Shown: positions 1,490-19,382 of the stretch, piece by piece
Numbering within the stretch: position 1 is the stretch's first letter
Layout of the letters: each line of letters begins with the position of its first letter
Virus record (IMG/VR): IMGVR_UViG_3300008110_000865
Coordinates: 1-23,698 of that record
Reading direction: 5' to 3' (one strand)
Length of the DNA: 23,698 nucleotides
From: a virus
Notes under the pieces: model-generated
The model's input: the letters and a program-made list of their open reading frames with translations, nothing else
What the model was told of the DNA's origin: nothing
The model's database searches: none
Made by a program: the position numbers and the translations under genes

Positions 1490-2110
1490 TATCTCTAGAA
1501 GTGTAAAGTCTATTGATTCTCCGTTAACAAAATTGTTAGTGATCGGGAACCAGTGATTATCCGGAATGACCATACATCCGGCAGACCAAGATCCTACGAT
1601 AGCAGTTACACCACCACGGTGTATATTGATTCCAAAGAGGCCGAACTGCTTATTTACTTTACTAACTGTTCTATCCCTACTGCCATCTCTCCATATGGTG
1701 ATGGGAAGGATCTGCTGAAAGTATGGGGCTCCGAGCCAAAGAGTACTCCACTTCTTATTAGTAACAAAGCGATGTGATCCGATTACTTGTTGTTCGGCAG
1801 CTACTGCGGTCCCGGTTATTCCCATATGGGTAATAGGAGAAAAGACATACTTATCTCCGGCTGTAGTAGAACATGGAACAACCGCTACGCATACTCCTCC
1901 TTTATACACAGCACAGTAATCGTCAAAGGTGTTTGAAAAGACTGCGTCTGTCCTCAAGAACACTAGGCCATCTTTGGGCCTCAGCCATTTATTGGTATTA
2001 ATCCTATTAGTAATATACCAATCAAGAGCAGTAAGAGTCTTAGCCCCAATAATACCATCCTCGGTAAGCTGGGCCCCTTTAGCATTAAGAATCTGTTGTA
2101 ACTTTTTCAT
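1487..2110 (-). CDS. YkuD/L,D-transpeptidase-fold cell-wall enzyme with N-terminal peptidoglycan-binding-like segment
   Basis: 207 aa. The N-terminus (QILNAKGAQLTEDGIIGAKTLTAL) resembles a peptidoglycan-binding-1 repeat with its 'DGIIG..T..AL' signature. The C-terminal half carries the YkuD-like active-site arrangement: H164 in 'NIHRGG' and C179 in 'WSAGCMV', with SAGC in place of the canonical SHGC. Bacterial L,D-transpeptidases cross-link peptidoglycan, but phage proteins of this type are usually taken as lysis enzymes cutting or modifying peptidoglycan; which applies is not visible. No signal peptide is seen, so release would need a holin or another route. ATG 2110 is preferred over 2170 because GGGAGA lies just upstream and the overlap with the upstream gene falls to 26 nt. 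It forms a leftward pair with that gene. Confidence 0.75.
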   Translation of the reverse strand: MKKLQQILNAKGAQLTEDGIIGAKTLTALDWYITNRINTNKWLRPKDGLVFLRTDAVFSNTFDDYCAVYKGGVCVAVVPCSTTAGDKYVFSPITHMGITGTAVAAEQQVIGSHRFVTNKKWSTLWLGAPYFQQILPITIWRDGSRDRTVSKVNKQFGLFGINIHRGGVTAIVGSWSAGCMVIPDNHWFPITNNFVNGESIDFTLLEI

Positions 2111-2558
2111 ATTGTTTCTCCCAATAAAAGGTAGGTTTCTTATCAACGTACTCACCAATAACATTAGCACGGAAATCAGAATTCCAATGCTCCGCTATAG
2201 ACATGAATAATAAGTCATCGTACTCATATCCTAAATCAAATAAAGCATTTTTCAAACGCTCCAAGAAAGGACACGTATAAGTAGAGCATATAATAATAGT
2301 ATGAAAGCGTGCTTGGAATGAAGAAGCAGATAAACCAAAGATCTTGAGATACGATTCCTCGCTCCTATCGTCTGGAATATCTATCGAGAGGACCACCGGA
2401 ATGTAAGTAGGTACGGAGATAGCATGAGCAACACGCTGTGCCAGTATCCCACTATGCTCAGGTTCAACCGCCAAGATAACTGCATCACTGCCATCTATGG
2501 CAGGCATACGATTAATCATCGACTTAATTAATCTATCCTCTTTGATCAAATCAATCAT
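2085..2558 (-). CDS. hypothetical protein, possible distant phosphoribosyltransferase-like fold
   Basis: 157 aa, soluble, with alternating strand/helix pattern. 'AVILAVEPEHSGILAQRVAHAI' then 'VPVVLSI' and later 'TIIICSTYTCPFLERLKNAL' resemble in layout the Rossmann-like core of phosphoribosyltransferases, but the acidic PRPP loop (DD..TG.T) is not present, so catalytic activity is unlikely or altered. The C-terminus has an aromatic 'PTFYWEKQYEKV' tail. It is co-transcribed with the cell-wall enzyme and overlaps it by 26 nt. A TAnnTTTG box lies 4 nt before its ATG, so the mRNA should be nearly leaderless. Function uncertain. Confidence 0.7.
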   Translation of the reverse strand: MIDLIKEDRLIKSMINRMPAIDGSDAVILAVEPEHSGILAQRVAHAISVPTYIPVVLSIDIPDDRSEESYLKIFGLSASSFQARFHTIIICSTYTCPFLERLKNALFDLGYEYDDLLFMSIAEHWNSDFRANVIGEYVDKKPTFYWEKQYEKVTTDS

Positions 2559-2562
2559 ATGA

Positions 2563-2570
2563 CAAAGATA
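2563..2570 (-). promoter_or_regulatory. -7 box of a leftward promoter, nearly leaderless
   Basis: On the minus strand TATCTTTG ends 4 nt before ATG 2558. The -33 element is weak (only a TGT-like match at the right distance). It would drive the two-gene leftward unit 2558-1487. Confidence 0.4.
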
Positions 2571-2955
2571 AATAAAAAATATATACTTACAGTATATAAC
2601 AAAATATATACCGGGGTAAAAAATAAGCCCCCCCCCTCTATATGGAAAAAACAGAAAAATTCATGCAGTTTGAGCAAAAGCGAAAGTTTGTGTGGGTGGT
2701 GGAGGTAATACGCTGCAAACAGCCGGGCCGGTGGTTCAAAAAAAACATCCCCCCCTATGCTCAAGCGATTTGCTGTAAAACATTGATCCTTAATGCTTTA
2801 GCAATTTACATTAGATTAAATTCAAAATATAAAACGATTCCATGCATACACTATCGAACGATTGTATATGCATATATTATACCTCATCACATCCATGCAC
2901 CTAAATAATATGTATATGCATGATCTGGAAAGCGTCTACTTTATTACACAGCACT

Positions 2956-3046
2956 CTGTCCAGGTTTTTGGACACTTTTGCTGTCCACTTTCCGGGACAC
3001 CGGGCTGTCTAATTTCCTGGACACCGGCTGTCCACATTATTGGTCG
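2956..3046. repeat. four tandem dyad repeats, TGTCC-N8-GGACA
   Basis: Units start at CTGTC(C/T) 2956, 2981, 3005 and 3028 (steps of 25, 24 and 23 bp). Each carries TGTC(C/T), exactly 8 bp, then GGACA; the last copy is degenerate (GGTCG). The spacers differ (AGGTTTTT, ACTTTCCG, AATTTCCT, ACATTATT), so the half-sites and the fixed 8-bp gap are conserved while the middles are not. This is the signature of binding sites for a dimeric protein (iterons or operators), or of tandem 5-bp hairpins if transcribed. Confidence 0.85.
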
Positions 3047-3141
3047 CTTTCCTGATCATCACATGGCGTTTTTTTTGTACTTTTTTGCTCCCTTTTTACC
3101 CAATAAAGGTTACCCTCATCCCCTCTAAAAACTATCGAACT

Positions 3142-3150
3142 TTATCCATA
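3142..3150 (+). promoter_or_regulatory. DnaA-box-like site TTATCCATA
   Basis: Matches the bacterial DnaA box TTATCCACA at 8 of 9 positions and lies in the candidate origin region. The phage encodes two DnaA-domain-IV-like proteins at 13147-14364. A single near-match in AT-rich DNA can occur by chance. Confidence 0.35.
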
Positions 3151-3262
3151 TTTCGCAACGAGCAAAAAAAACTTTCAAAAAAATTCACTTTCTGAAACCC
3201 TTACCATTATTGGCTTTTTTACAATTTTGTAGATTTGTTCTAAAATTATTTTTCGATTTCAC

Positions 3263-3294
3263 TTGCATGGTATTTCGAAATGGATTTACCTTTG
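3263..3294 (+). promoter_or_regulatory. Bacteroidetes-type promoter for the rightward small-gene region
   Basis: TTG (3263-3265), 21 bp, TACCTTTG (3287-3294), then about 50 nt of leader before ATG 3345. The initially transcribed sequence (TTTGCAACATCGAAACGAC...) is nearly repeated after the 6405-6412 box. Confidence 0.65.
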
Positions 3295-3344
3295 CAACAT
3301 CGAAACGACAAAAAAACATCATTAAAACACTAAATTAAAAAATC

Positions 3345-3839
3345 ATGAAAACCACATTCACACTCTCGCAAGGCACTTATGTGCACACCATCACAATCAA
3401 CACCACTAACAAGTTCGCTGACCATAGCGTAGGGCAAGTGGTAGGTATGTTAGCCCATCGATTCTACACCGCCATAGGCACTATGCGTATGATGGGTAAT
3501 GGTAGTGGGATTAACCTTCGCAATCCTTTTGACATCACTATTGAGTCCGAAGGTATCACTTTGCTTAACACTTTGACCATAGACGAGTCTATTAAGGCAC
3601 GAATCACTTGCGGTCTTACTGCTCGTGGGCAGAAACGATTCGCTAAATTGCTCGCCTTGTCCCTTTGGGCAAATGGCACTGAAAATGGCGAGGGTTTTGC
3701 CCAAATTACTGACAGCGTAGTGCATGACCTATTGGACGAAGATAACTGCGTTGAACTTGAGCATATCGCCATGCAAGTTCGTGCCTTACTCGATTTGCCT
3801 TATGCTGATGTGGTAGAGTGTTCCATACTTAGGGACTAA
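3345..3839 (+). CDS. hypothetical protein, 164 aa, first gene of the rightward region
   Basis: Soluble protein with a Thr/Ile-rich beta-like N-terminus (TFTLSQGTYVHTITINTTNKF), a central helical part (QKRFAKLLALSLWANG) and an acidic C-terminal helix. No recognised motif. Its promoter is at 3263-3294 and its ATG is preceded by an AT-rich leader without a Shine-Dalgarno sequence. It is followed by a long structured, apparently non-coding stretch and a tRNA-like gene, so all may be one transcript. Being first after the control region suggests early expression. Function unknown. Confidence 0.75.
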   Translation: MKTTFTLSQGTYVHTITINTTNKFADHSVGQVVGMLAHRFYTAIGTMRMMGNGSGINLRNPFDITIESEGITLLNTLTIDESIKARITCGLTARGQKRFAKLLALSLWANGTENGEGFAQITDSVVHDLLDEDNCVELEHIAMQVRALLDLPYADVVECSILRD

Positions 3840-3848
3840 CTACCTTTA

Positions 3849-4121
3849 TCCCCTCACAAGTGTGCAAGATGCGGAGCGTTACCGCATAGGGGAGCGAATC
3901 AACGGATAACAGCAGTTTGAACTGCCAAACCCATGGGATGAGGGGGGGGTTTGTGGCCGATAGATTTACGAATCTATCCTCGATTAGCAGAGATGCGAGG
4001 CCTTGCCGAAGATAGTTCTTTGACATACCAACGTGATTGCATAAAGGGAACTTGCAATCGTTCGTGGCACACGTTCCTACTGACTATGTAAGGACTCCAA
4101 TAATATGGTATGGTACATAGT
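3849..4121 (+). ncRNA. hairpin-rich non-coding stretch, candidate structured RNA
   Basis: No good ORF, but stable stems occur in series: CCCCTCA (3850-3856) can pair with TGAGGGG (3939-3945); ATGCGG/CCGCAT (3869-3874/3882-3887); GCAGT/ACTGC (3912-3916/3921-3925); GATAGATT/AATCTATC closed by a TACG tetraloop (3959-3966/3971-3978); CCTCG/CGAGG (3978-3982/3996-4000); AACGT/ACGTT (4030-4034/4071-4075) enclosing GATTGCA/TGCAATC (4035-4041/4053-4059); CTATGTA/TACATAG (4084-4090/4114-4120). It lies directly upstream of a tRNA-like gene. It does not match any RNA family I can recognise. Confidence 0.55.
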
Positions 4122-4144
4122 ATGGACGTGTTCGATATACCTCC

Positions 4145-4217
4145 GCAGTGGTGCAAATGTAAAGGCATGGCATATGGTTTTGACTCCATGTGTTAGGGTT
4201 CGATTCCCTCCCACTGC
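4145..4217 (+). tRNA. tRNA-Gln(UUG)-like gene with 8-nt anticodon loop
   Basis: GCAGTGG (4145-4151) pairs perfectly with CCACTGC (4211-4217). The T-arm AGGG-TTCGATT-CCCT is at 4195-4209. The anticodon stem ATATGG/CCATGT (4172-4177/4186-4191) encloses an 8-nt loop TTTTGACT (4178-4185). Reading U33 at 4179 and A37 at 4183 gives anticodon UUG (Gln); shifting by one gives UGA (Ser). The D-arm is weak (GTGC/GCAT or ATG/CAT) and lacks the usual GG placement. No CCA is encoded. Total length is normal for a class I tRNA, so it is probably expressed, but it could be degenerate. Confidence 0.6.
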
Positions 4218-4242
4218 ACTAATACCTAAATAATATAGACAT

Positions 4243-4332
4243 ATGGAATTCGCAATCGTATTTGGCTTTGCTTCATGTATTGCCATCATCTTTGTTTGTC
4301 TGCTTGCTTATATAGTGGACAAGATTATCTGA
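4243..4332 (+). CDS. 29-aa single-pass membrane peptide
   Basis: MEFAIVFGFASCIAII followed by FVCLLAYIV forms one continuous hydrophobic helix covering nearly the whole peptide, ending VDKII. It begins 25 nt after the tRNA-like gene with no Shine-Dalgarno sequence. A CTGAGNCCC motif (4329-4337) overlaps its stop codon. Tiny membrane peptides are common in phage early regions. Coding is plausible from the clean hydrophobic pattern and neighbour spacing but is not proven. Confidence 0.5.
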   Translation: MEFAIVFGFASCIAIIFVCLLAYIVDKII

Positions 4333-4360
4333 GACCCAAACCTAACCAATAAATAAACAA

Positions 4361-4513
4361 ATGAAATCATTATCATTATCGTGTACAATCGCCTTGGGCG
4401 TATGTGCTGTGCTGTCTTATCAGCAAAACCAAATCATGCTCATGGGAGTTTGCATTTTTCTGGCAATCACCTATGGCATCGGATTCATCAGTCAAATCAA
4501 AACTAATAACTAA
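4361..4513 (+). CDS. 50-aa two-helix membrane protein
   Basis: Two hydrophobic segments, about residues 5-19 (LSLSCTIALGVCAVLS) and 26-44 (MLMGVCIFLAITYGIGF), joined by the polar turn YQQNQ; the C-terminus is basic/polar. It lies between another membrane peptide and a soluble small gene. The size and hairpin topology recall small phage membrane proteins (including class II holins), but it is far from the lysis genes, so a holin role is not supported. Confidence 0.55.
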   Translation: MKSLSLSCTIALGVCAVLSYQQNQIMLMGVCIFLAITYGIGFISQIKTNN

Positions 4514-4518
4514 TAGTC

Positions 4519-5235: not shown

Positions 5236-5952
5236 ATGAAAAACGTAGTATTTAGACAAGGCAATACCATCGTATTGTTCACCTTCGGTAAGACATCCAA
5301 TAAAAAGATTGCTCAGCAAGGCGAGACCATCGTGCAGTCATTCCATTTCAGTCGGTCTCAGTTCGAACTCGCACAAGGTAAGACATCCATGCGAGAGTTC
5401 TTCGGTGCTGATGGGGATGTATGTTTCGATTGTCCTTTCTCAGTGAGTAATGGTGCATCACTATCCGCTTGTTATACTCATAAACTTATGCAGTATAGTG
5501 GATTCCTTTCTTCTCTCCGCTCTATAGGTAAGAAGTACTCATCCTTTGATGACATACCCGATCTGAGCCCCAAACTATTCGAGCAGATAGTTGAGCAGTC
5601 TCGTGGTAAGTACGTCCGCTTCGGTTCATATGGAGAACCTATCCTTATACCATACTCCTTAGTTAACGATATCGTAAGTGTGGCTAAGTCCTGGACTGGG
5701 TACACCCACCAATGGATGAGTTACCCGGAGTTCAGCAAGTTCTTCATGGCTTCGACCCATACACCATGTGGAGAGAGCATGGCTCGTGCCTTTGGATGGA
5801 AGTCATTCGTGGCTACCGAAGACAAGTTAACCGATATGGTCAACTGCCCGGCCTCCGAAGAACAGAACTTTAGAAGTAACTGCTCCAAGTGTGGACTATG
5901 TAGTGGCACTGAGGGTAAGGGAAGTAAATCAGTATTCATTTTAGAACATTAA
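5236..5952 (+). CDS. Cys-cluster protein resembling the phage/plasmid DUF7227-type family
   Basis: 238 aa. Ordered signatures: an early Cys pair 'CFDCPF' (about residue 57), another Cys in 'SACYTHK', then 'VRFGSYGEPILIPY' (about 126-140), 'SWTGYTHQW' (about 152-160), 'FFMAST' and 'GWKSF', and a C-terminal 'NCPASEE ... CSKCGLC.GTEGKG'. From memory this series (R-x-G-x-YG-P, TGYTHQW, CPASEE, C-x-x-C-x-x-C) defines a family widespread in phages and plasmids, of unknown function; a metal or Fe-S cluster is plausible from the cysteines. It is the largest recognisable conserved protein of the small-gene array. The family number is from memory. CTGAGNCCC occurs at 5563-5571. Confidence 0.75.
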   Translation: MKNVVFRQGNTIVLFTFGKTSNKKIAQQGETIVQSFHFSRSQFELAQGKTSMREFFGADGDVCFDCPFSVSNGASLSACYTHKLMQYSGFLSSLRSIGKKYSSFDDIPDLSPKLFEQIVEQSRGKYVRFGSYGEPILIPYSLVNDIVSVAKSWTGYTHQWMSYPEFSKFFMASTHTPCGESMARAFGWKSFVATEDKLTDMVNCPASEEQNFRSNCSKCGLCSGTEGKGSKSVFILEH

Positions 5953-11813: not shown

Positions 11814-12212
11814 ATGAAAAATATAATAAACAAATTGATTGATCAGGGTAGCGTGGAATTTAATCCGTTCACCTTGCAAACAAAGGTACAGCGTTACTCA
11901 TTTTGTGTAGGCTACAGCGAGGACGATTTAATCGATAGCGTAACTCCTGAAAGTATTATTGAAGACCTGATCGAGAATGCAAAGGACATTCGTAGTGAGA
12001 TTGTTCCTGACTGCCCGGAAGAAAACTTCTTCTGCATCGTGTACGCAATGGATTCAACCTACACAATTTATTTTCAATGGGGCTCAGAAAATCTCAAGGA
12101 AACAATCAAGTACGCCCTGGAGTATGATGAGAATGAAATACTGGACATTAAGTATGGAGAGTACATGGCAATTGATCAGGAAGGAAATATAATAGACAAT
12201 GGAGAAGATTGA
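11814..12212 (+). CDS. hypothetical acidic protein, 132 aa
   Basis: Strongly acidic, with a Cys-containing middle (PDCPEENFFCIVYAMD) and strand-like 'STYTIYFQWGSENL'. The C-terminus 'IDQEGNIID' resembles the 'VDQEGIMV' end of the protein encoded at 10094-10318, hinting at a shared C-terminal module. It overlaps the next gene by 14 nt. A reverse CTGAGNCCC copy is at 12079-12087. Function unknown. Confidence 0.65.
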   Translation: MKNIINKLIDQGSVEFNPFTLQTKVQRYSFCVGYSEDDLIDSVTPESIIEDLIENAKDIRSEIVPDCPEENFFCIVYAMDSTYTIYFQWGSENLKETIKYALEYDENEILDIKYGEYMAIDQEGNIIDNGED

Positions 12213-12483
12213 TGTTTTTGTTCCGATAGAGGACTACAATGAGTTCGTATCTCGTTTTGACAATGCTAAGGTTGCCATAGATGCGCTGACCATAGCTGTT
12301 GAAAACCGGGTGCGTTCTCATCGTAGCCTACTGAATCGTGATTTAATTAATCGCAAGGATAGAATTAAGATTACTATCCCAGTTAAGGAACATCTCATGC
12401 CATACCTCAATGAGTATTGCGTAATGAAAGGACTAACAAGAACTGAGTTTATAACCAAAGTATTAAAGAGAAGAAACATATGA
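12199..12483 (+). CDS. ribbon-helix-helix-like DNA-binding protein upstream of the recombinase
   Basis: 94 aa. The N-terminal half is helical and acidic; the C-terminal half reads 'DRIKITIPVKEHLMPYLNEYC' followed by 'MKGLTRTEFITKVLKRR', which matches a ribbon-helix-helix fold: a strand, helix A, turn, helix B with basic end. RHH proteins bind DNA as dimers through the paired strands and often repress their own operon or assist recombinases. The stop overlaps the recombinase ATG by 4 nt, so the two are translationally coupled. The fold call is by pattern. Confidence 0.65.
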   Translation: MEKIDVFVPIEDYNEFVSRFDNAKVAIDALTIAVENRVRSHRSLLNRDLINRKDRIKITIPVKEHLMPYLNEYCVMKGLTRTEFITKVLKRRNI

Positions 12484-13160
12484 AAGCGTTAGGTTACATC
12501 CGTGTATCAACAGATATGCAAGCAGAGAAAGGTACTTCACTTGAGAACCAAGTTGCACGTATCAAAGAGTTCGCTGAAAGTCGTGGTCTTGAACTCGAAA
12601 AGATTTACGAGGATGCCGGGTTCAGCGGTAAGAATACCAATAGGCCGGCTTTTCAGGAAATGTTTAGCAGAATAAGTTTTGGTGGTGTGAGTGCAGTTAT
12701 CGTATGGCACAGCACACGCTTTGCTCGTAATCTCCGGGACTTCATTAACCACATGGCTGAGCTGGAAAAGAGAAAGATTAAGTTCTATTCCATAGAGGAG
12801 CCTGAGATGTCTGGATCTTCCGGCAAGGCAATGCGTAATCTTATGGCTGTCTTTGCCGAATATCAGTCCGATGTAACCTCCGAGTATACCAGATCAGTTA
12901 AGGCGAATCTTAAAAAGAATCTGCAAGTATACTGCGCTACTCCTCCCCTTGGGTTTATACATGAGGATGGTAAATTAGTCCGAGACCCAAACACTTACCA
13001 GATCGTGGAGCAAATCTTTTCCTTCAAGGCAGAAGGTATGTCGATGCATACCATAGCCAAAACACTTAATCGTTTAGGTTATAGTGGTCACAAAGGTGGT
13101 AAGTTTTATACAAGTACAATACAGAAAATATTAAACAATAAGATATATGAAAACATTTGA
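12480..13160 (+). CDS. serine recombinase lacking a zinc-ribbon domain
   Basis: 226 aa. Catalytic N-terminal domain: 'YIRVST' with R8 and nucleophile S10, R55 in 'NRPAF', and 'TRFARN' (R80, R83) in place of the usual DRLxR. 'GSSGKAMRNLMAVFAEYQSD' matches the region before the long E helix. Residues about 155-226 ('PPLGFIHEDGKLV...YQIVEQIF...GMSMHTIAKTLN..G...TIQKILNNKIYENI') are a recombinase domain (PF07508-like). The chain ends directly after it, so the zinc ribbon and coiled coil of large serine integrases (450-550 aa) are missing. It may be an invertase/resolvase-type enzyme, or a truncated integrase. The 3' end overlaps the next gene by 14 nt. Confidence 0.9.
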   Translation: MKALGYIRVSTDMQAEKGTSLENQVARIKEFAESRGLELEKIYEDAGFSGKNTNRPAFQEMFSRISFGGVSAVIVWHSTRFARNLRDFINHMAELEKRKIKFYSIEEPEMSGSSGKAMRNLMAVFAEYQSDVTSEYTRSVKANLKKNLQVYCATPPLGFIHEDGKLVRDPNTYQIVEQIFSFKAEGMSMHTIAKTLNRLGYSGHKGGKFYTSTIQKILNNKIYENI

Positions 13161-13506
13161 AACAAAACAAGACAGACAAATCATAGAACAAATTCAAGAT
13201 TGTATCGAGGAAGTAATTGGTGTGCCTCGTGAGTTCTGGGTACACAGAAGAAGTAGGAAAATTGAAGAAGTAACGATACGTCACATCTATGGTTACTTCC
13301 TGAAAAATATGACCGGGATGTCCTTGCAGAGTATTGCAAATCACTTGGGTCACATTAATCATACAACCATTATCAGTTCAAATAGAGTGGTTGATAATTG
13401 GTTAAGCGTTCCTACTATGTATAGAAAAGAAAATCAAATCATTAAGCAAGTCGAGAAGTTATACGCAGAAAGGTATCCGGAATGTATTACTGAACTTATT
13501 GATTAA
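13147..13506 (+). CDS. DnaA domain IV-like DNA-binding protein (paralog 1)
   Basis: 119 aa. 'VTIRHIYGYFLKNMTGMSLQSIANHLGHINHTTIISSNRVV' in pieces corresponds to the DnaA C-terminal helix-turn-helix: an R-H-I helix, 'SLQ.IA..LG', then 'NHTTI' at the place of DnaA's DHTTV box-recognition signature. The AAA+ domain of DnaA is absent. The N-terminal part has 'IEEVIGVPREFW..RRSRK', also seen in paralog 2. Such stand-alone domains may bind DnaA-box-like sequences to start or regulate phage replication. Its start lies within the end of the recombinase gene. Confidence 0.8.
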   Translation: MKTFETKQDRQIIEQIQDCIEEVIGVPREFWVHRRSRKIEEVTIRHIYGYFLKNMTGMSLQSIANHLGHINHTTIISSNRVVDNWLSVPTMYRKENQIIKQVEKLYAERYPECITELID

Positions 13507-13516
13507 TCCTATTAAT

Positions 13517-14014
13517 ATGAAAGTAAAAATAGATCATGAGATGAACATTGTTCCTATCAAAAAGAGAACAGCGTTGAAATTATTCACACTGATAATGGTT
13601 GGTGTAGTTGTTATTACCAATATATATCTATTGACAAAGAACCCGGAGATTCAGACCATATACCGGTATCTGAGTCCCGATCACAACCACAATGATGTAC
13701 CGCTGACACAAGATTCTTTGACTGCGGAATTGCACAAAGATGGATGTGTTCTAGTTAACGTAGCGATTGCTCAGGCTCGTCTGGAATCTAATCTCGGCAA
13801 GAGCAATGTGGGTAGGAACGCAAAGAATATGTTTGGTATTACTTACCACAACTGCAAGTATGTCTCCGGCAAGTACGGACCATACGCAACCTACAAAACG
13901 TATCGTGACAACATCAAATGCTACATCCACATCCAAGACTATTATCTCCGGGCAATCGATGGCAAGTATGCTGAAGCACCGGATTACGTTCAAACAATAA
14001 AGAAACTGAAATGA
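13517..14014 (+). CDS. membrane-anchored GH73-like glucosaminidase (FlgJ/LytG-type)
   Basis: 165 aa. A basic cytoplasmic start is followed by one membrane helix (about residues 20-39) and an extracytoplasmic domain. 'VAIAQARLESNLGKS' with E90 as the likely catalytic acid, then 'NAKNMFGI' and 'YATYKTYRDNI..YI.IQDYYLRA', are hallmark features of mannosyl-glycoprotein endo-beta-N-acetylglucosaminidase domains that cut peptidoglycan glycan strands. ATG 13517 was chosen; an in-frame TTG at 13499 overlaps the previous stop. The stop overlaps the next start (ATGA). Its position between two DnaA-like genes, far from other lysis genes, is unusual. Confidence 0.85.
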   Translation: MKVKIDHEMNIVPIKKRTALKLFTLIMVGVVVITNIYLLTKNPEIQTIYRYLSPDHNHNDVPLTQDSLTAELHKDGCVLVNVAIAQARLESNLGKSNVGRNAKNMFGITYHNCKYVSGKYGPYATYKTYRDNIKCYIHIQDYYLRAIDGKYAEAPDYVQTIKKLK

Positions 14015-14364
14015 TATACATAGAAACAAAACAGCAGACGAAAGTAAGACAGAACATTGTAGAATCTATCGAAGATGTACTCGGTGTTCCAAGAGAACTA
14101 TGGGAGATACGCAGAGGTCGTACCTCACAAGAGGTAATGATTCGCCATATCTTTATCCATATGTTGCACAACTACGGAAAGTTTACACTGCAAAACATTG
14201 CACGTATCGTAGGACTCAAAAATCATTCTACTGTTATCCAGTCTATCAATCTTACCAAAGAGTGGTATACTGAGTACAGATGGGTGCATGAAAGAATTTT
14301 GTTAGACCAGATCAAAGAAAACTATGAACAAAGAATTAATAAAACTGCTGAGTCATTTGCTTGA
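14011..14364 (+). CDS. DnaA domain IV-like DNA-binding protein (paralog 2)
   Basis: 117 aa, clearly paralogous to the protein at 13147-13506: shared 'IE(D/E)V(L/I)GVPRE(L/F)W..RR.R...EV.IRHI' and 'LQ.IA...G..NH(S/T)T(V/I)I.S'. The HTH recognition segment reads 'LKNHSTVIQS', equivalent to DnaA's DHTTV region. The two paralogs differ in the loop before NHxT, so they may recognise different sites. The 3' end overlaps the next gene by 41 nt. Confidence 0.8.
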   Translation: MIYIETKQQTKVRQNIVESIEDVLGVPRELWEIRRGRTSQEVMIRHIFIHMLHNYGKFTLQNIARIVGLKNHSTVIQSINLTKEWYTEYRWVHERILLDQIKENYEQRINKTAESFA

Positions 14365-14629
14365 TAAGAGCGATCCCAATTGGGCTCAGAACCCGGAACT
14401 AATCGATGCTATGAATAAGCTACATGAAAGAAAAACTTTTGCTCCACCAACTCTTCAGGAAGTAATTGATGAGCTGGCAAGACAAAAAGTATTTAATCAT
14501 GTGGTCCAGGCTACCAAGTTTTGGAATTTCTATGAGGCTAAGAATTGGATGATAGGAAAAAACAAAATGAAAAATTGGAAAGCAGCCATCAAGACTTGGA
14601 ACTTTGAAAAAGAAAGTATATTTTTGTAA
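14324..14629 (+). CDS. replication-protein C-terminal-domain-like protein, 101 aa
   Basis: The second half, 'FAPPTLQEVIDELARQ...VVQATKFWNFYEAKNWMIGKNKMKNWKAAIKTW', is the pattern 'PP.leEV...., A.kF.n.Y...nW.vGknkMknWkaAi..W' found at the C-termini of many Bacteroidetes phage and plasmid replication proteins. Here it stands nearly alone, without the usual N-terminal helix-turn-helix domain. A helicase-loading or primosome role is plausible from that resemblance and from the neighbouring DnaA-like and primase genes. Confidence 0.75.
   Translation: MNKELIKLLSHLLDKSDPNWAQNPELIDAMNKLHERKTFAPPTLQEVIDELARQKVFNHVVQATKFWNFYEAKNWMIGKNKMKNWKAAIKTWNFEKESIFL
14596..14626 (+). promoter_or_regulatory. Bacteroidetes-type promoter before the primase-polymerase run
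   Basis: TTG (14596-14598), 20 bp, TATTTTTG (14619-14626), overlapping the end of the previous gene; ATG 14638 follows after 11 nt. It could raise expression of the primase-helicase and polymerase downstream. Confidence 0.5.
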
Positions 14630-15162: not shown

Positions 15163-15601
15163 ACTTGAGTATGTAAATCGTAATAACAATGTAATTACAT
15201 TTACCAAGTTGGATGACCAGTCAGTTATCATGGAAGGTGTGCAGTTTATGCGTGCCAAGTATGATGCTGATTTGTATCAGCCGGATGATAATGTGTATGA
15301 CATGGTTGACCCGGATGGTGGACCGTATCTTACTAAGGGTATGTCTTTAGAGCATATCAATAAGAATTGGTATCACCTGATCATCCGGTACTTCTCGATT
15401 GAGGACACAAATAAAATCCATATTTATTTCTATCCGGACACCATCAGCAAGAACATTACCAATGACCGTGTGATCTGGAAGATATACAATACTGATGGAG
15501 AGATAATTGCTCAGAAGGATTCTTATGAGAAGGCTATTAGATTTATAGAAAGTAAGTACGACTACGATGAATTCGGACAAGCTTGTAAGGTTGGGAATTG
15601 A
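15155..15601 (+). CDS. hypothetical protein, 148 aa
   Basis: Soluble acidic mixed alpha/beta protein. 'MEGVQFMRAKYDADLYQPDD' and 'YDMVDPDGGPYLTKGMSLE' in the first half; strand-rich 'HLIIRYFSIED', 'IHIYFYP', 'VIWKIYNTDGEIIAQKDSYEKAI' in the second. The repeated strand pattern suggests a compact beta-sandwich or alpha/beta domain, but no family is recognised. It overlaps the primase-helicase start by 35 nt, so the two are likely coupled. Confidence 0.7.
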   Translation: MSKLEYVNRNNNVITFTKLDDQSVIMEGVQFMRAKYDADLYQPDDNVYDMVDPDGGPYLTKGMSLEHINKNWYHLIIRYFSIEDTNKIHIYFYPDTISKNITNDRVIWKIYNTDGEIIAQKDSYEKAIRFIESKYDYDEFGQACKVGN

Positions 15602-17306
15602 CTTGAGGAACAGATGGAGCGGAGAGGTTAAGACTCTCTGCCCCAAATGTTCTAATCAAAGAAAGAAAAAGAATGATCCTTCACTCGGTGTAAACATAGA
15701 TACCGGTGTTTGGAAATGTCACCACTGCGGATGGTCAGGTTCAGTTAATCAGTATGTGAGACCCGAACCAAAGAAACCTATTCAGACCGATGGGATTTAT
15801 ACTTACTTTGAGAAACGTAAGATTACGAAGGAAACAGTGGACCTTTTTGGAATTACTGAGTCAACCGAATGGATGCCCCAGGATCAGAAAGAACACAAGG
15901 TTATTTGCTTTAATTATTTTCTAAACGATGAACTTATCAATATCAAATTCAAGACCGCTGACAAGAAGTTCAAGATGGTCAAAGACGCACGCAAAATCCC
16001 TTATAATGTGGATTCAATCAAAGACTCTGAGTATGTTATCATATGCGAAGGAGAAGAAGAGACAATGGTCTGGCATCAGTCTAACCTCAGAGCAGTTTCT
16101 GTGCCTAACGGTGCTAGTCGGAACAATAACAATCTTGACTGGCTTGATGCTACTTATGACCTTTTTGAGTCAAAAATAATTTACCTTGCAACTGATAACG
16201 ATGAGCCCGGAAGGAAACTGCGCCAAGACATAGCACGTAGGTTCTCTAGCCATGATATCCGTATCATAGATTTTCCGGAGAGCGAGAAGGATGCCAATGA
16301 TTGCCTTAAGAGATACGGTCAGGATTTTATATCTCGTTTATTCCACGATGCTAAACCACTTCCGGTGGAAGAAATATCTTACGCCATGGACTACTTGGAT
16401 ACCATCAAGTCTTTTCAGACCGATGGATATCCTGTTGGTGCTTTGGTAGATATGACTGAGACCGATAAGCATCTGTCGTGGAACCGGGGAGAACTCGGTG
16501 TGGTTACAGGCATCCCGGGTTCAGGTAAAAGTACATGGCTCGACTATATGTTTGTTCGCCTTGCCTACCTAAAGAACTGGAAGTTTGGAATCTTCTCACC
16601 TGAGAACATAGCACCGCTGAAAATTACCCGGATGAGCGAGCAATTGTTGAACAAGCCATTGAATCAGATGAATACCGGTGAGTTGGAAGCAAGCGTGAAC
16701 ATTTTAGATAAGCACTTTTGGTTCTACAATGTTGAGACTATGGAAGACTACTCGCTAACCAATCTGCTACGCTTGGGTGAGATGCTTGTTAAACGGCACG
16801 GAATCGATTGTCTATGCTTAGATCCTTTCAATTACATCGAGCAGGATGGAGACGAGGAAAGTTCCAACGAGAGAATCGGTGGACTGCTGAGAAGACTGAA
16901 GAAATTTGCTGTTAAGAACAATGTCTGCGTAGTACTTGTGGCTCACCCAAGAAAGATGGATAAGTCTGCCAATGGTTATAATGTACCTAGGCTGTACGAT
17001 ATCAGCGGATCCCACCATTTCTTTAACGTTCCGGATTGGGGTTTGGCAGTACACCGCTCTTTCCAAAACGGAGAGAAGGATCCGGTAGAAGTATACGTGC
17101 AAAAAATAAAATACCACTTCCGTGGAAAATTGGGCCGGGTTGATTACGAATTCAATCGTGCAACTGGACAGTACAGCGAGGATGGGAAGTTTCACAATTT
17201 AATACACTTGAAAAATGATAGCGATATTGATGAACATAATTTGTTCAGCTCACCGGAAGCGTGGGGAAGAGGTGCTGGAATTCAACCTCAGTCCACACTA
17301 CTATAA
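15567..17306 (+). CDS. primase-helicase, T7 gp4-like
   Basis: 579 aa with three parts in order. (1) Zinc-binding primase domain: C25-P-K-C28 and C51-H-H-C54. (2) TOPRIM: E161 in 'VIICEGEEE', D210 and D212 in 'YLATDNDEPG'. (3) RecA-like ring helicase: Walker A GIPGSGKST at 315-323 and Walker B-like 'IDCLCLDPFNYI' near 413-424. Such enzymes lay RNA primers and unwind DNA 5'-3' at the fork, working with the phage polymerase encoded just downstream. Length is close to T7 gp4 (566 aa). The start overlaps the upstream gene by 35 nt. Confidence 0.95.
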   Translation: MNSDKLVRLGIDLRNRWSGEVKTLCPKCSNQRKKKNDPSLGVNIDTGVWKCHHCGWSGSVNQYVRPEPKKPIQTDGIYTYFEKRKITKETVDLFGITESTEWMPQDQKEHKVICFNYFLNDELINIKFKTADKKFKMVKDARKIPYNVDSIKDSEYVIICEGEEETMVWHQSNLRAVSVPNGASRNNNNLDWLDATYDLFESKIIYLATDNDEPGRKLRQDIARRFSSHDIRIIDFPESEKDANDCLKRYGQDFISRLFHDAKPLPVEEISYAMDYLDTIKSFQTDGYPVGALVDMTETDKHLSWNRGELGVVTGIPGSGKSTWLDYMFVRLAYLKNWKFGIFSPENIAPLKITRMSEQLLNKPLNQMNTGELEASVNILDKHFWFYNVETMEDYSLTNLLRLGEMLVKRHGIDCLCLDPFNYIEQDGDEESSNERIGGLLRRLKKFAVKNNVCVVLVAHPRKMDKSANGYNVPRLYDISGSHHFFNVPDWGLAVHRSFQNGEKDPVEVYVQKIKYHFRGKLGRVDYEFNRATGQYSEDGKFHNLIHLKNDSDIDEHNLFSSPEAWGRGAGIQPQSTLL

Positions 17307-17457
17307 GAAACTGAAATCCAAAGAATTCAATTACCATGGATTAATAATTCCCATAGTATGCGAGGGATGGATTAAAGTAAAAGACTACTACTACTTAGAA
17401 CTAGAAACAACACACGGAAATTTATTAACCAATCAAATAACATATAGACTAAAATGA
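17272..17457 (+). CDS. hypothetical protein, about 61 aa, between primase and polymerase
   Basis: Reading frame to 17457 with 'LEFNLSPHYYKKLKSKEFNYHG' and 'IPIVCEGWIKVKDYYYLELETTHG' in two strands-rich blocks. In-frame ATGs at 17215 and 17233 would give overlaps of 92 and 74 nt with the primase-helicase, so GTG 17272, just after GGGGAAGAG, is preferred; the start is uncertain. The stop overlaps the polymerase ATG by 4 nt. Function unknown. Confidence 0.55.
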   Translation: MLEFNLSPHYYKKLKSKEFNYHGLIIPIVCEGWIKVKDYYYLELETTHGNLLTNQITYRLK

Positions 17458-19382
17458 TAAAGGTATACGACATAGAAACATTCTCCAATTGTTTTACATA
17501 CATAGATTACGATCCGGAGGATCAAACATTTAATGAATTTGTTGTCTGTGAATTCAGAAACGATCTGGATGCATTTATTGCCTACATGGATTCTCTTTTG
17601 AAAAAGAAGGCCGGAATGATTGGTTTCAATAACGTGAACTTTGACTGGCCGATAGTTAAAGCATTGTGGGAAGGACAAATTCGTACTGCTGAGCAAGTCT
17701 ATGCCATGGCTCAGGAGATAACTTCCAGGGAAAAGAAACAATATGTTAAGCAAGACATACCACAATTAGACTTATATTTGCTGAATCATTATGACAATAA
17801 GGCACGTTCAACATCTCTGAAGGCACTTGAGGTTTCCTTGGGATGGAACAATGTGATGGATATGCCCTTTCATCATACTGAGAAAATCGATAAGATAAAA
17901 TTACTTAAGGTGCTAGAGTACAACAAGAACGATGTACTATTCACCGCTAAGTTTTATGAGAAATGTTCTGAGAAAATTGAACTCAGAAAAAAGATAGGCA
18001 AGAAATATAATCTGAACGTTTTGAATAAATCTGATGTGGTTATCGGAGAATCTATCTTCCTTAAGTACATGAGCGAGGCCATGGGAATCCCCATGCGACA
18101 ACTGGCTGAGATACGTGGTAAAAGATCTGATGTGCCTCTGAAGGATATCATATTACCTAACGTAAGGTTTGAGGCTCAAGAGTTTAACAAGTTGCTTGAA
18201 CTTATGAGAGTTACAACTTCTTCCCCGCAGTTCTTGCAAAATTTTGTGGATGGGCTCGATATGCGTTCAAACGTTAATGATTTATACGATAAATTTAAGG
18301 ACAACAATATTCGTGTGCAGAGAATAGCACAGCAGAAAAAGAGTTTTTCCTTCTCAGTCAACTTCGGTGGTCTGTGTTTAGATTATGGTGTGGGTGGTAT
18401 ACATGGTTGCATAACTCCGGGAGTTTATGTGTCCAGTAAATATAGTAAAATACTGGACATTGATGTTAAGTCTTATTATCCTAATTTATTTATACAGAAT
18501 CGTTTACATCCACGCCAAATGGATCAGGATACCTTTGTAAATGTGTATAGTGATATTTATCAGCAAAGGTTAAAAGCGCAGCAGGAAAAAGATACGCTGA
18601 CCTCTGATGCGTTAAAACTTGCACTGAATGGAATGTTCGGTAAGACTGGTAGTGATGTGTCATGTTTCTTCGATCCTTTTGTATTTTATGGGGTTACTGT
18701 GAATGGTCAGCTCTTCTTGTCCATGCTCGTGGAACAATTGGTTAAGAACGGAGCAGAACTGCTTCAGGTTAACACAGATGGTGTGACAATTAGCATACCT
18801 CGTAAATTGGAAGAAAAGATATTAGAAGTTTGCAGAAGCTGGGAGAAGGAAACTAAGTTAACCCTTGAGTACGCATCTTACAGCAAAATGATTATCCGGG
18901 ATGTGAATAACTACATTGCTGTATCTGAGAACGGTAAGATTAAAGAGAAAGGTGCATTTGAGACCAAAAAGGATTGGCACAAGGATAACTCCTTTATGGT
19001 AGTTCCTTACGCTGTCCGTGAGTACTTTGTCAATGGGACTCCGATAGAAGATACCTTACGTAACCATGAGAACATTCTAGACTTCTGTGGTCGATATAAA
19101 GCATCTAAGGGATGGCACGTGGAATACATTTATTTGGATGGCAATAAGGAAAAGAGAATGGACTTTGGTAAGATGTATAGATACCTTCCGGTGAACAAAG
19201 GTGGGACCTCTATGAAGATAAATAAGGACGGAAGAGAACACCATCTGTGCGAAGGAATTCAGACTATACCTTATAACACAACTGAACTTTTCGATAAGTC
19301 CAACTTGAACTACCAGTTTTTTGAAAACGAATGCAGGAAATTAATCGAGACGATCAAGCCGAGTCAATTGATACTCCTATGA
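17454..19382 (+). CDS. family B DNA polymerase with 3'-5' exonuclease
   Basis: 642 aa. Exonuclease: 'YDIETF' (D6, E8), 'NVNFDWP' (D64) and 'YNKNDV' (about 157-162). Polymerase: motif A 'DIDVKSYYPNLF' (about 335-346), motif B 'KLALNGMFGKTGS' (about 386-398), motif C 'VNTDGVTI' (about 438-445), where NTDG replaces the YxDTDS form. The overall size is that of compact phage polymerases. Protein priming (phi29-type) is not indicated, since a primase-helicase is encoded next to it. It overlaps neighbours by 4 nt on the left and probably 4 nt on the right. Confidence 0.95.
   Translation: MIKVYDIETFSNCFTYIDYDPEDQTFNEFVVCEFRNDLDAFIAYMDSLLKKKAGMIGFNNVNFDWPIVKALWEGQIRTAEQVYAMAQEITSREKKQYVKQDIPQLDLYLLNHYDNKARSTSLKALEVSLGWNNVMDMPFHHTEKIDKIKLLKVLEYNKNDVLFTAKFYEKCSEKIELRKKIGKKYNLNVLNKSDVVIGESIFLKYMSEAMGIPMRQLAEIRGKRSDVPLKDIILPNVRFEAQEFNKLLELMRVTTSSPQFLQNFVDGLDMRSNVNDLYDKFKDNNIRVQRIAQQKKSFSFSVNFGGLCLDYGVGGIHGCITPGVYVSSKYSKILDIDVKSYYPNLFIQNRLHPRQMDQDTFVNVYSDIYQQRLKAQQEKDTLTSDALKLALNGMFGKTGSDVSCFFDPFVFYGVTVNGQLFLSMLVEQLVKNGAELLQVNTDGVTISIPRKLEEKILEVCRSWEKETKLTLEYASYSKMIIRDVNNYIAVSENGKIKEKGAFETKKDWHKDNSFMVVPYAVREYFVNGTPIEDTLRNHENILDFCGRYKASKGWHVEYIYLDGNKEKRMDFGKMYRYLPVNKGGTSMKINKDGREHHLCEGIQTIPYNTTELFDKSNLNYQFFENECRKLIETIKPSQLILL

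Follow-up and report, generated by a model that had tools for sequence, protein, structure and literature searches.

Background

The replication origins of phage lambda and of the Stx phages contain tandem imperfect inverted repeats of ~19 bp, four in lambda and six in Stx phages, which are located within the O gene beside an A+T-rich tract (PMC7466680). Our literature search retrieved papers on such lambda-type origins and none on the array described below or on phage DnaA-domain-IV proteins like those encoded with it; the array itself is unreported, but the kind of element is already known. Repeated short DNA sites also occur in other settings. The operators of ribbon-helix-helix (RHH) repressors consist of short repeats, usually with tighter steps, which are bound by small beta-strand proteins, while the res sites of Tn3 resolvases are dyad clusters with TGTCY outer ends. 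The DnaA box, TTATCCACA, has the core TATCCA.

Here we analyse a repeat array in a virus record of 23,698 bp, to which we refer over its full length as the window. The record is a linear phage fragment with genes for a terminase, a primase-helicase (15567-17306) and a PolB-type polymerase (17454-19382). Its phage is uncharacterised, the host probably belongs to the Bacteroidota, and INPHARED contained no near-identical phages. Phages of this group possess PolB and a primase-helicase, but neither an initiator nor an origin has been recognised in them; the array offers a concrete 90-bp target, together with two or three small candidate proteins, for the replication start or an early switch.

Results

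Four tandem dyads in a divergent control region

A first-pass annotation had noticed four tandem dyads of the form TGTCC-N8-GGACA at 2956-3046, and all four are present. They lie in the non-coding region 2559-3344, bounded by a leftward gene on one side and a rightward operon on the other. The annotation was correct in placing them between divergent units, but this is not the only large intergenic region, as a second non-coding stretch of 679 bp is found at 3840-4518. The features of the region are:

2085-2558, minus strand: first leftward gene (phrog_29004), no assigned function
2863-2873 and 2911-2921, plus strand: exact repeat TGTATATGCAT, with an inverted copy from 2842
2920-2934, plus strand: left arm of an inverted repeat (14/15 match) that brackets the array
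2957-2974: dyad unit 1, TGTCCAGGTTTTTGGACA, a perfect 6-6-6 dyad (TGTCCA-GGTTTT-TGGACA) with 0 mismatches to TGTCC-N8-GGACA
2982-2999: dyad unit 2, TGTCCACTTTCCGGGACA, 0 mismatches
3006-3023: dyad unit 3, TGTCTAATTTCCTGGACA, 1 mismatch
3029-3046: dyad unit 4, TGTCCACATTATTGGTCG, 2 mismatches, with the degenerate right half GGTCG
3045-3059, minus strand: right arm of the bracketing inverted repeat, touching unit 4
3047-3260: A+T-rich tract adjoining the array (31% GC; array 52%, window 39%)
3159-3167, plus strand: CGAGCAAAA followed by A-rich DNA, seen by eye
3262-3294, plus strand: predicted Bacteroidota-type promoter of the rightward operon, CTTG-N21-TACCTTTG
3345-3839, plus strand: first rightward gene, 164 aa, family not recognised

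The units are 18 bp long and follow each other in steps of 25, 24 and 23 bp. Preservation of the half-sites through all four units, as previously proposed, overstates the case, given the mismatches in units 3 and 4. To estimate chance occurrence, the window and 60 dinucleotide-preserving shuffles of it were scanned for chains of dyads sharing any half-site, with gaps of 4-11. The real window yielded a 4-unit chain, while the best shuffled chain comprised one unit in 38, two units in 21 and three units in a single one of the 60 shuffles; as no shuffle reached four units, the array is real and not a product of chance. It is intergenic, without a conserved ORF across it, and neither the tRNA scan nor the Rfam scan of the window gave a match at gathering thresholds.

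The array overlaps no predicted promoter. Its end is 216 bp from the first base of the promoter predicted at 3262-3294, and predicted Bacteroidota-type promoters lie 184-241 bp beyond the array in the window and 92-93 bp beyond it in the relatives G004 and G053. Wherever a predicted -7 element was found near an array of at least three units, it starts at least 92 bp away, which makes plain occlusion of the promoter cores unlikely. The same predicted promoter layout, CTTG-N21-TANCTTTG, occurs in L152 and L164, and CGAGCAAAA with A-rich DNA was likewise seen by eye downstream of the arrays in G004 (L156) and G053 (L149). The tract at 3047-3260 is a candidate unwinding element; since the left side of the array is A+T-rich too, this neighbourhood discriminates weakly. 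GC skew, suggested earlier as a check for an origin, has its minimum near 3.2-3.8 kb, but follows gene direction (+0.075 for plus-strand genes, -0.107 for minus-strand genes) and is therefore uninformative in this respect.

Conservation, gain and loss of the array in related phages

Relatives were collected through PolB (54 loci) and through the protein encoded at 5236-5952 (50 loci); a search with peptides of the 164-aa protein found none. About a dozen relatives have an array of 3-6 units or single dyads in their early non-coding region, usually some 1.8-2.6 kb upstream of the homologue of the 5236-5952 protein, and homologues of the 3345-3839 gene lie directly downstream of them in G044, G048, G055, G009, G022 and G046. 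From 29 units of the window and its relatives the unit can be refined to TGTCCA-N6-TGGACA. There are four units in G044 (steps 24, 25 and 23) and six plus one single in G048, while G022, G046, G047, G055 and G009 possess single dyads (two each in G009 and G055, one in G047); in some relatives a second dyad lies at a distance of about 1 kb. In G004 and G053 three units are found instead about 2 kb downstream of the 5236-5952 homologue. Outside the early region, contigs of 40-69 kb contain dyads with up to two mismatches only at control level, so that the sites are confined to the early control region.

Among these relatives the TGTCCA and TGGACA half-sites stay while the spacers drift without compensation, which supports the earlier suggestion of selection on the dyads. 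A counter-test proposed with it was that close relatives might have lost the symmetry of the dyads: the array-bearing relatives keep the symmetry, whereas the sister phages G019/G020 and G015 are devoid of the whole array. Both flanks of the array in G044 are closely alike in G019, where GCACAC-type simple repeats occupy its position. Being present or absent between alike flanks and relocated in other relatives, the element is acquired, lost and relocated in one piece. Array-less relatives were also scanned for other half-sites, and no dyad arrays were detected. Gain and loss between sisters, together with the single-dyad genomes, fit a reading as iterons and one as operators alike. We regard a functionless chance or neutral repeat expansion as having next to no probability: GCACAC repeats replace the array in G019 without obvious damage, but the shuffle test and the retention of half-sites around freely varying spacers in some dozen relatives are at odds with it.

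The exchange of simple repeats for a TGTCC array between sister phages can be followed at L126 (5300-5480) against L195 (6400-6560), and similar simple repeats occur in G010, G057 and G046. A second repeated element, TAACTCATTGATTWTCAACAACTTACA, with the palindromic core TTGAWWWTCAA, is repeated 3-4 times within this control region in several relatives (L155, 3161-3723; L158, 3076-3271; L140, 3377-3524; L157, 4028-4185).

DNA sites rather than RNA hairpins

Dyads of this kind could also act in the transcript, as terminator- or attenuator-like hairpins; indeed, units 1 and 3/4 score as terminator-like stems, and in G033 one dyad forms the anticodon-like arm of a tRNA-like element. Across the 29 units, however, the arms pair in 89.7% of cells against 89.9% in shuffles, with one both-side change, and the letters of the half-sites are conserved beyond what mere pairing would need. 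Uncompensated arm changes with retained half-site letters identify the dyads as DNA sites and, as far as sequence can tell, are the signature of a protein-bound palindrome. RNA hairpins are accordingly a very improbable explanation.

Several tRNA-like elements were seen nearby. Tiny ones, consisting of an acceptor stem and a T-arm, occur in the non-coding gap that follows the 3345 homologue (L326, 3355-3406; L157, 5109-5158; L334, 581-639); two of them end in CCA, and the one in L334 (G033) carries the dyad TGTCCACTATCCTGGACA at its anticodon-arm position. They are possibly processing signals or degenerate tRNAs. The window itself has a tRNA-like cloverleaf at 4145-4219 (7-bp acceptor GCAGTGG/CCACTGC, T-loop TTCGATT, over-long anticodon arm), which ARAGORN does not call and for which Rfam gave only a sub-threshold match to the tmRNA 3' end (E 0.029).

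The same pattern in other genomes

When IMG/VR was scanned blindly for pairs of adjacent TGTCC-N8-GGACA dyads, 54 contigs were returned, against one for a control with a permuted half-site of the same composition. In most matches the dyads form a multi-unit array, stepping by 22-27 bp, within an ORF whose N-terminus carries a winged helix; 21/32 array-bearing ORFs match a replication-initiation PHROG and 19/32 match HTH_36. TGTCC arrays also occur in bacterial chromosomes, outside any initiator gene. The link of the array to replication genes holds for most viral contigs and not for bacterial chromosomes, and a search for tandem TGTCC-N8-GGACA dyads is a useful way of recognising O-like initiator genes at the DNA level in uncultured phages. 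Chromosomal intergenic dyad repeats (L198-L277) were seen in Segatella, Prevotella, Porphyromonas, Armatimonadota, Nocardiopsis and Methylobacterium; in L218 and L229 they adjoin TTATCCACA-like boxes.

Candidate binding proteins

The following genes of the window encode small proteins which could act at the array:

12199-12483, plus strand: candidate binder A, a 94-aa RHH-like protein with the C-terminal beta strand RIKITIP
13147-13506, plus strand: DnaA-domain-IV protein no. 1 (PF08299), with orthologues in array-less relatives
14011-14364, plus strand: candidate binder B, DnaA-domain-IV protein no. 2 (PF08299), which tracks dyad presence
14324-14629, plus strand: 101-aa protein directly after DnaA-domain-IV protein no. 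2, homologous to the C-terminal domain of O-like initiators

Both DnaA-domain-IV assignments of the first-pass annotation were confirmed (PF08299, E 4e-11 and 1e-8), and such a protein is encoded in 14/16 genomes (the window and 15 relatives). Its RHH assignment finds weak database support: the beta-alpha-alpha order fits, but the Pfam family RepB-RCR_reg, matched in 6/15, falls below cut-off for the window protein, and a Foldseek match to the CopG fold (E about 6) is only suggestive. The 14324-14629 protein resembles the O-like initiators of two TGTCC-array-bearing loci (L048, E 3.5e-11; L020, E 2e-9) as well as annotated phage replication proteins. Neither an HTH_36 nor a lambda-O-like initiator was found in the window or in 15 relatives, whose records are incomplete. 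The replication operon also includes a gene for an endolysin-like protein (13499-14014, phrog_10967) between both DnaA-domain-IV genes.

Dyad presence follows the RHH protein. Its identity to the window protein in dyad-bearing genomes is 80% in G004, 72% in G053, 55% in both G022 and G046, and 50% in L326; dyads occur in 6/6 RHH-clade genomes with coverage (window included) and in 0/9 genomes with a divergent RHH protein (G010, G015, G019, G020, G027, G030, G036, G057 and G068), including G015 and G019, whose neighbouring genes are close to those of the window. A mid-strand lysine of the C-terminal beta strand (RIKITIP, RVKITIP, RIKLTIP, HQKISIP, HIKINIP) is absent from the dyad-less genomes. 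Exceptions are G009, G055 and G047, with single dyads despite a divergent RHH protein. Both candidates had been named as possible binders, and both do covary with the sites; they do so equally, however, and covariation cannot choose between them. The sample, moreover, consists of few genomes, partly near-duplicates with few independent events, and is phylogenetically confounded.

These observations bear on the reading we rank second, a possible one that we do not favour, in which the tandem RHH protein (12199-12483) would bind the array as side-by-side dimers and control the early divergent promoters remotely, by looping or spreading, so that the array would be operator- or enhancer-like. The sorting of genomes by RHH identity, the lysine missing from dyad-less genomes, and an array that is acquired, lost and, in G004 and G053, shifted to a position upstream of a promoter (-7 element at 92-93 bp) are in its favour. 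Against this, the clade pattern is common to DnaA-domain-IV protein no. 2 and confounded by phylogeny; G009, G055 (two single dyads each) and G047 (one) break it, the RHH assignment is itself weak, predicted promoter cores are too distant for plain occlusion, and RHH operators generally step more tightly than about 24 bp.

A serine recombinase of 226 aa is encoded at 12480-13160 (PF00239; a catalytic domain and a truncated Recombinase domain), its start overlapping the RHH gene, and this short form is conserved in 32 of the fetched loci. The array and its bracketing 14/15 inverted repeat might thus constitute a resolution or inversion site for this enzyme, and the TGTCY outer ends are typical of Tn3 resolvase res dyads. 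Nevertheless, the dyads measure 18 bp and resolvase sites 25-34 bp, recombinase identity does not track dyad presence, and the bracketing repeat was not found in that form in relatives. We consider such a site improbable.

Discussion

A tentative origin of replication

The array, its geometry and location, its conservation as a DNA site and the domain homologies of the candidate proteins are established by the sequence. On this basis the four dyads, placed in the main early control region, are most likely a tandem array of sites bound by a dimeric DNA-binding protein of the phage itself, with a role, most likely, in the replication start of the viral DNA or in early-gene control. The first-pass annotation had offered both iterons and a multi-operator switch; the geometry is that of lambda-O-type iteron arrays, but the O-like initiator that accompanies these was not found here. 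Our first choice, to which we give slightly less than an even chance, is that the dyads are lambda-ori-type iterons of an iteron-like origin, ranked ahead of the operator array.

Several lines of evidence were counted for an origin. The 18-bp unit, the 23-25 bp step and the four units (3-6 in relatives) reproduce a lambda-type layout, and the arrays of the blind scan lie mostly in O-like initiator genes. The prevalence of DnaA-domain-IV proteins, the O-like C-terminal homology and the A+T-rich neighbour point the same way, as do the position of the array clear of predicted promoters and the confinement of dyads to the early region. The half-site TGTCCA is, in addition, one base off the TATCCA core of the DnaA box, which is a weak argument. 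Counted against an origin are the lack of an HTH_36 initiator in the window and 15 relatives with an array outside any initiator gene, the array-less G019/G020 and G015 (G019 despite the flanks it has in common with G044), the single-dyad relatives, some with their second dyad about 1 kb off, the RHH protein covarying as well as DnaA-domain-IV protein no. 2, and the chromosomal TGTCC arrays outside initiators.

If the array is an origin, the binding, unwinding, origin function and choice of binder that we infer could proceed as follows. The dyads would be occupied by several initiator dimers lined up next to each other, with opening of the A+T-rich tract beside them (3047-3260) and recruitment of the phage's own primase-helicase and PolB. 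A DnaA-domain-IV protein next to an O-like C-terminal homologue led us to propose a split initiator, in which the 14011-14364 protein would bind DNA and the 14324-14629 protein would contact the helicase. The more specific version, a lambda-like origin where a stand-alone DnaA domain IV replaces the winged helix, the O-like C-terminal domain is separate, and the array is swapped between sisters as the DNA-binding partner changes, is rather unlikely.

Comparison with known systems

With lambda-type origins the locus has in common tandem imperfect inverted repeats (here four of 18 bp) and an A+T-rich neighbour; it differs in its intergenic array, its half-site TGTCCA and the missing O-like initiator. 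As the in-gene array and the initiator are two defining features of that class, we do not file the array as a member. Operators of RHH repressors (CopG, Arc, omega, ParG type) similarly comprise several short repeats, and a putative RHH-like protein encoded here covaries with them as DnaA-domain-IV protein no. 2 does, but the steps of about 24 bp and the lack of overlap with predicted promoter cores set this array apart. From a Tn3-type res site it differs in its 18-bp dyads, compared with 25-34 bp. The chromosomal TGTCC repeats of Prevotella, Segatella, Porphyromonas and others possess the same palindrome with a similar step, in different genomes and gene contexts. Finally, the arrays within HTH_36/O-like genes (for example L020, L035, L048, L050 and L053) belong to initiators with a winged-helix DNA-binding domain, and the sixth half-site base, mostly A in this phage group, is free in them; yet they agree with the present array in the core half-sites, the 8-bp gap and a step of 22-27 bp, and in two of them (L048, L020) the C-terminal initiator domain is common to both systems.
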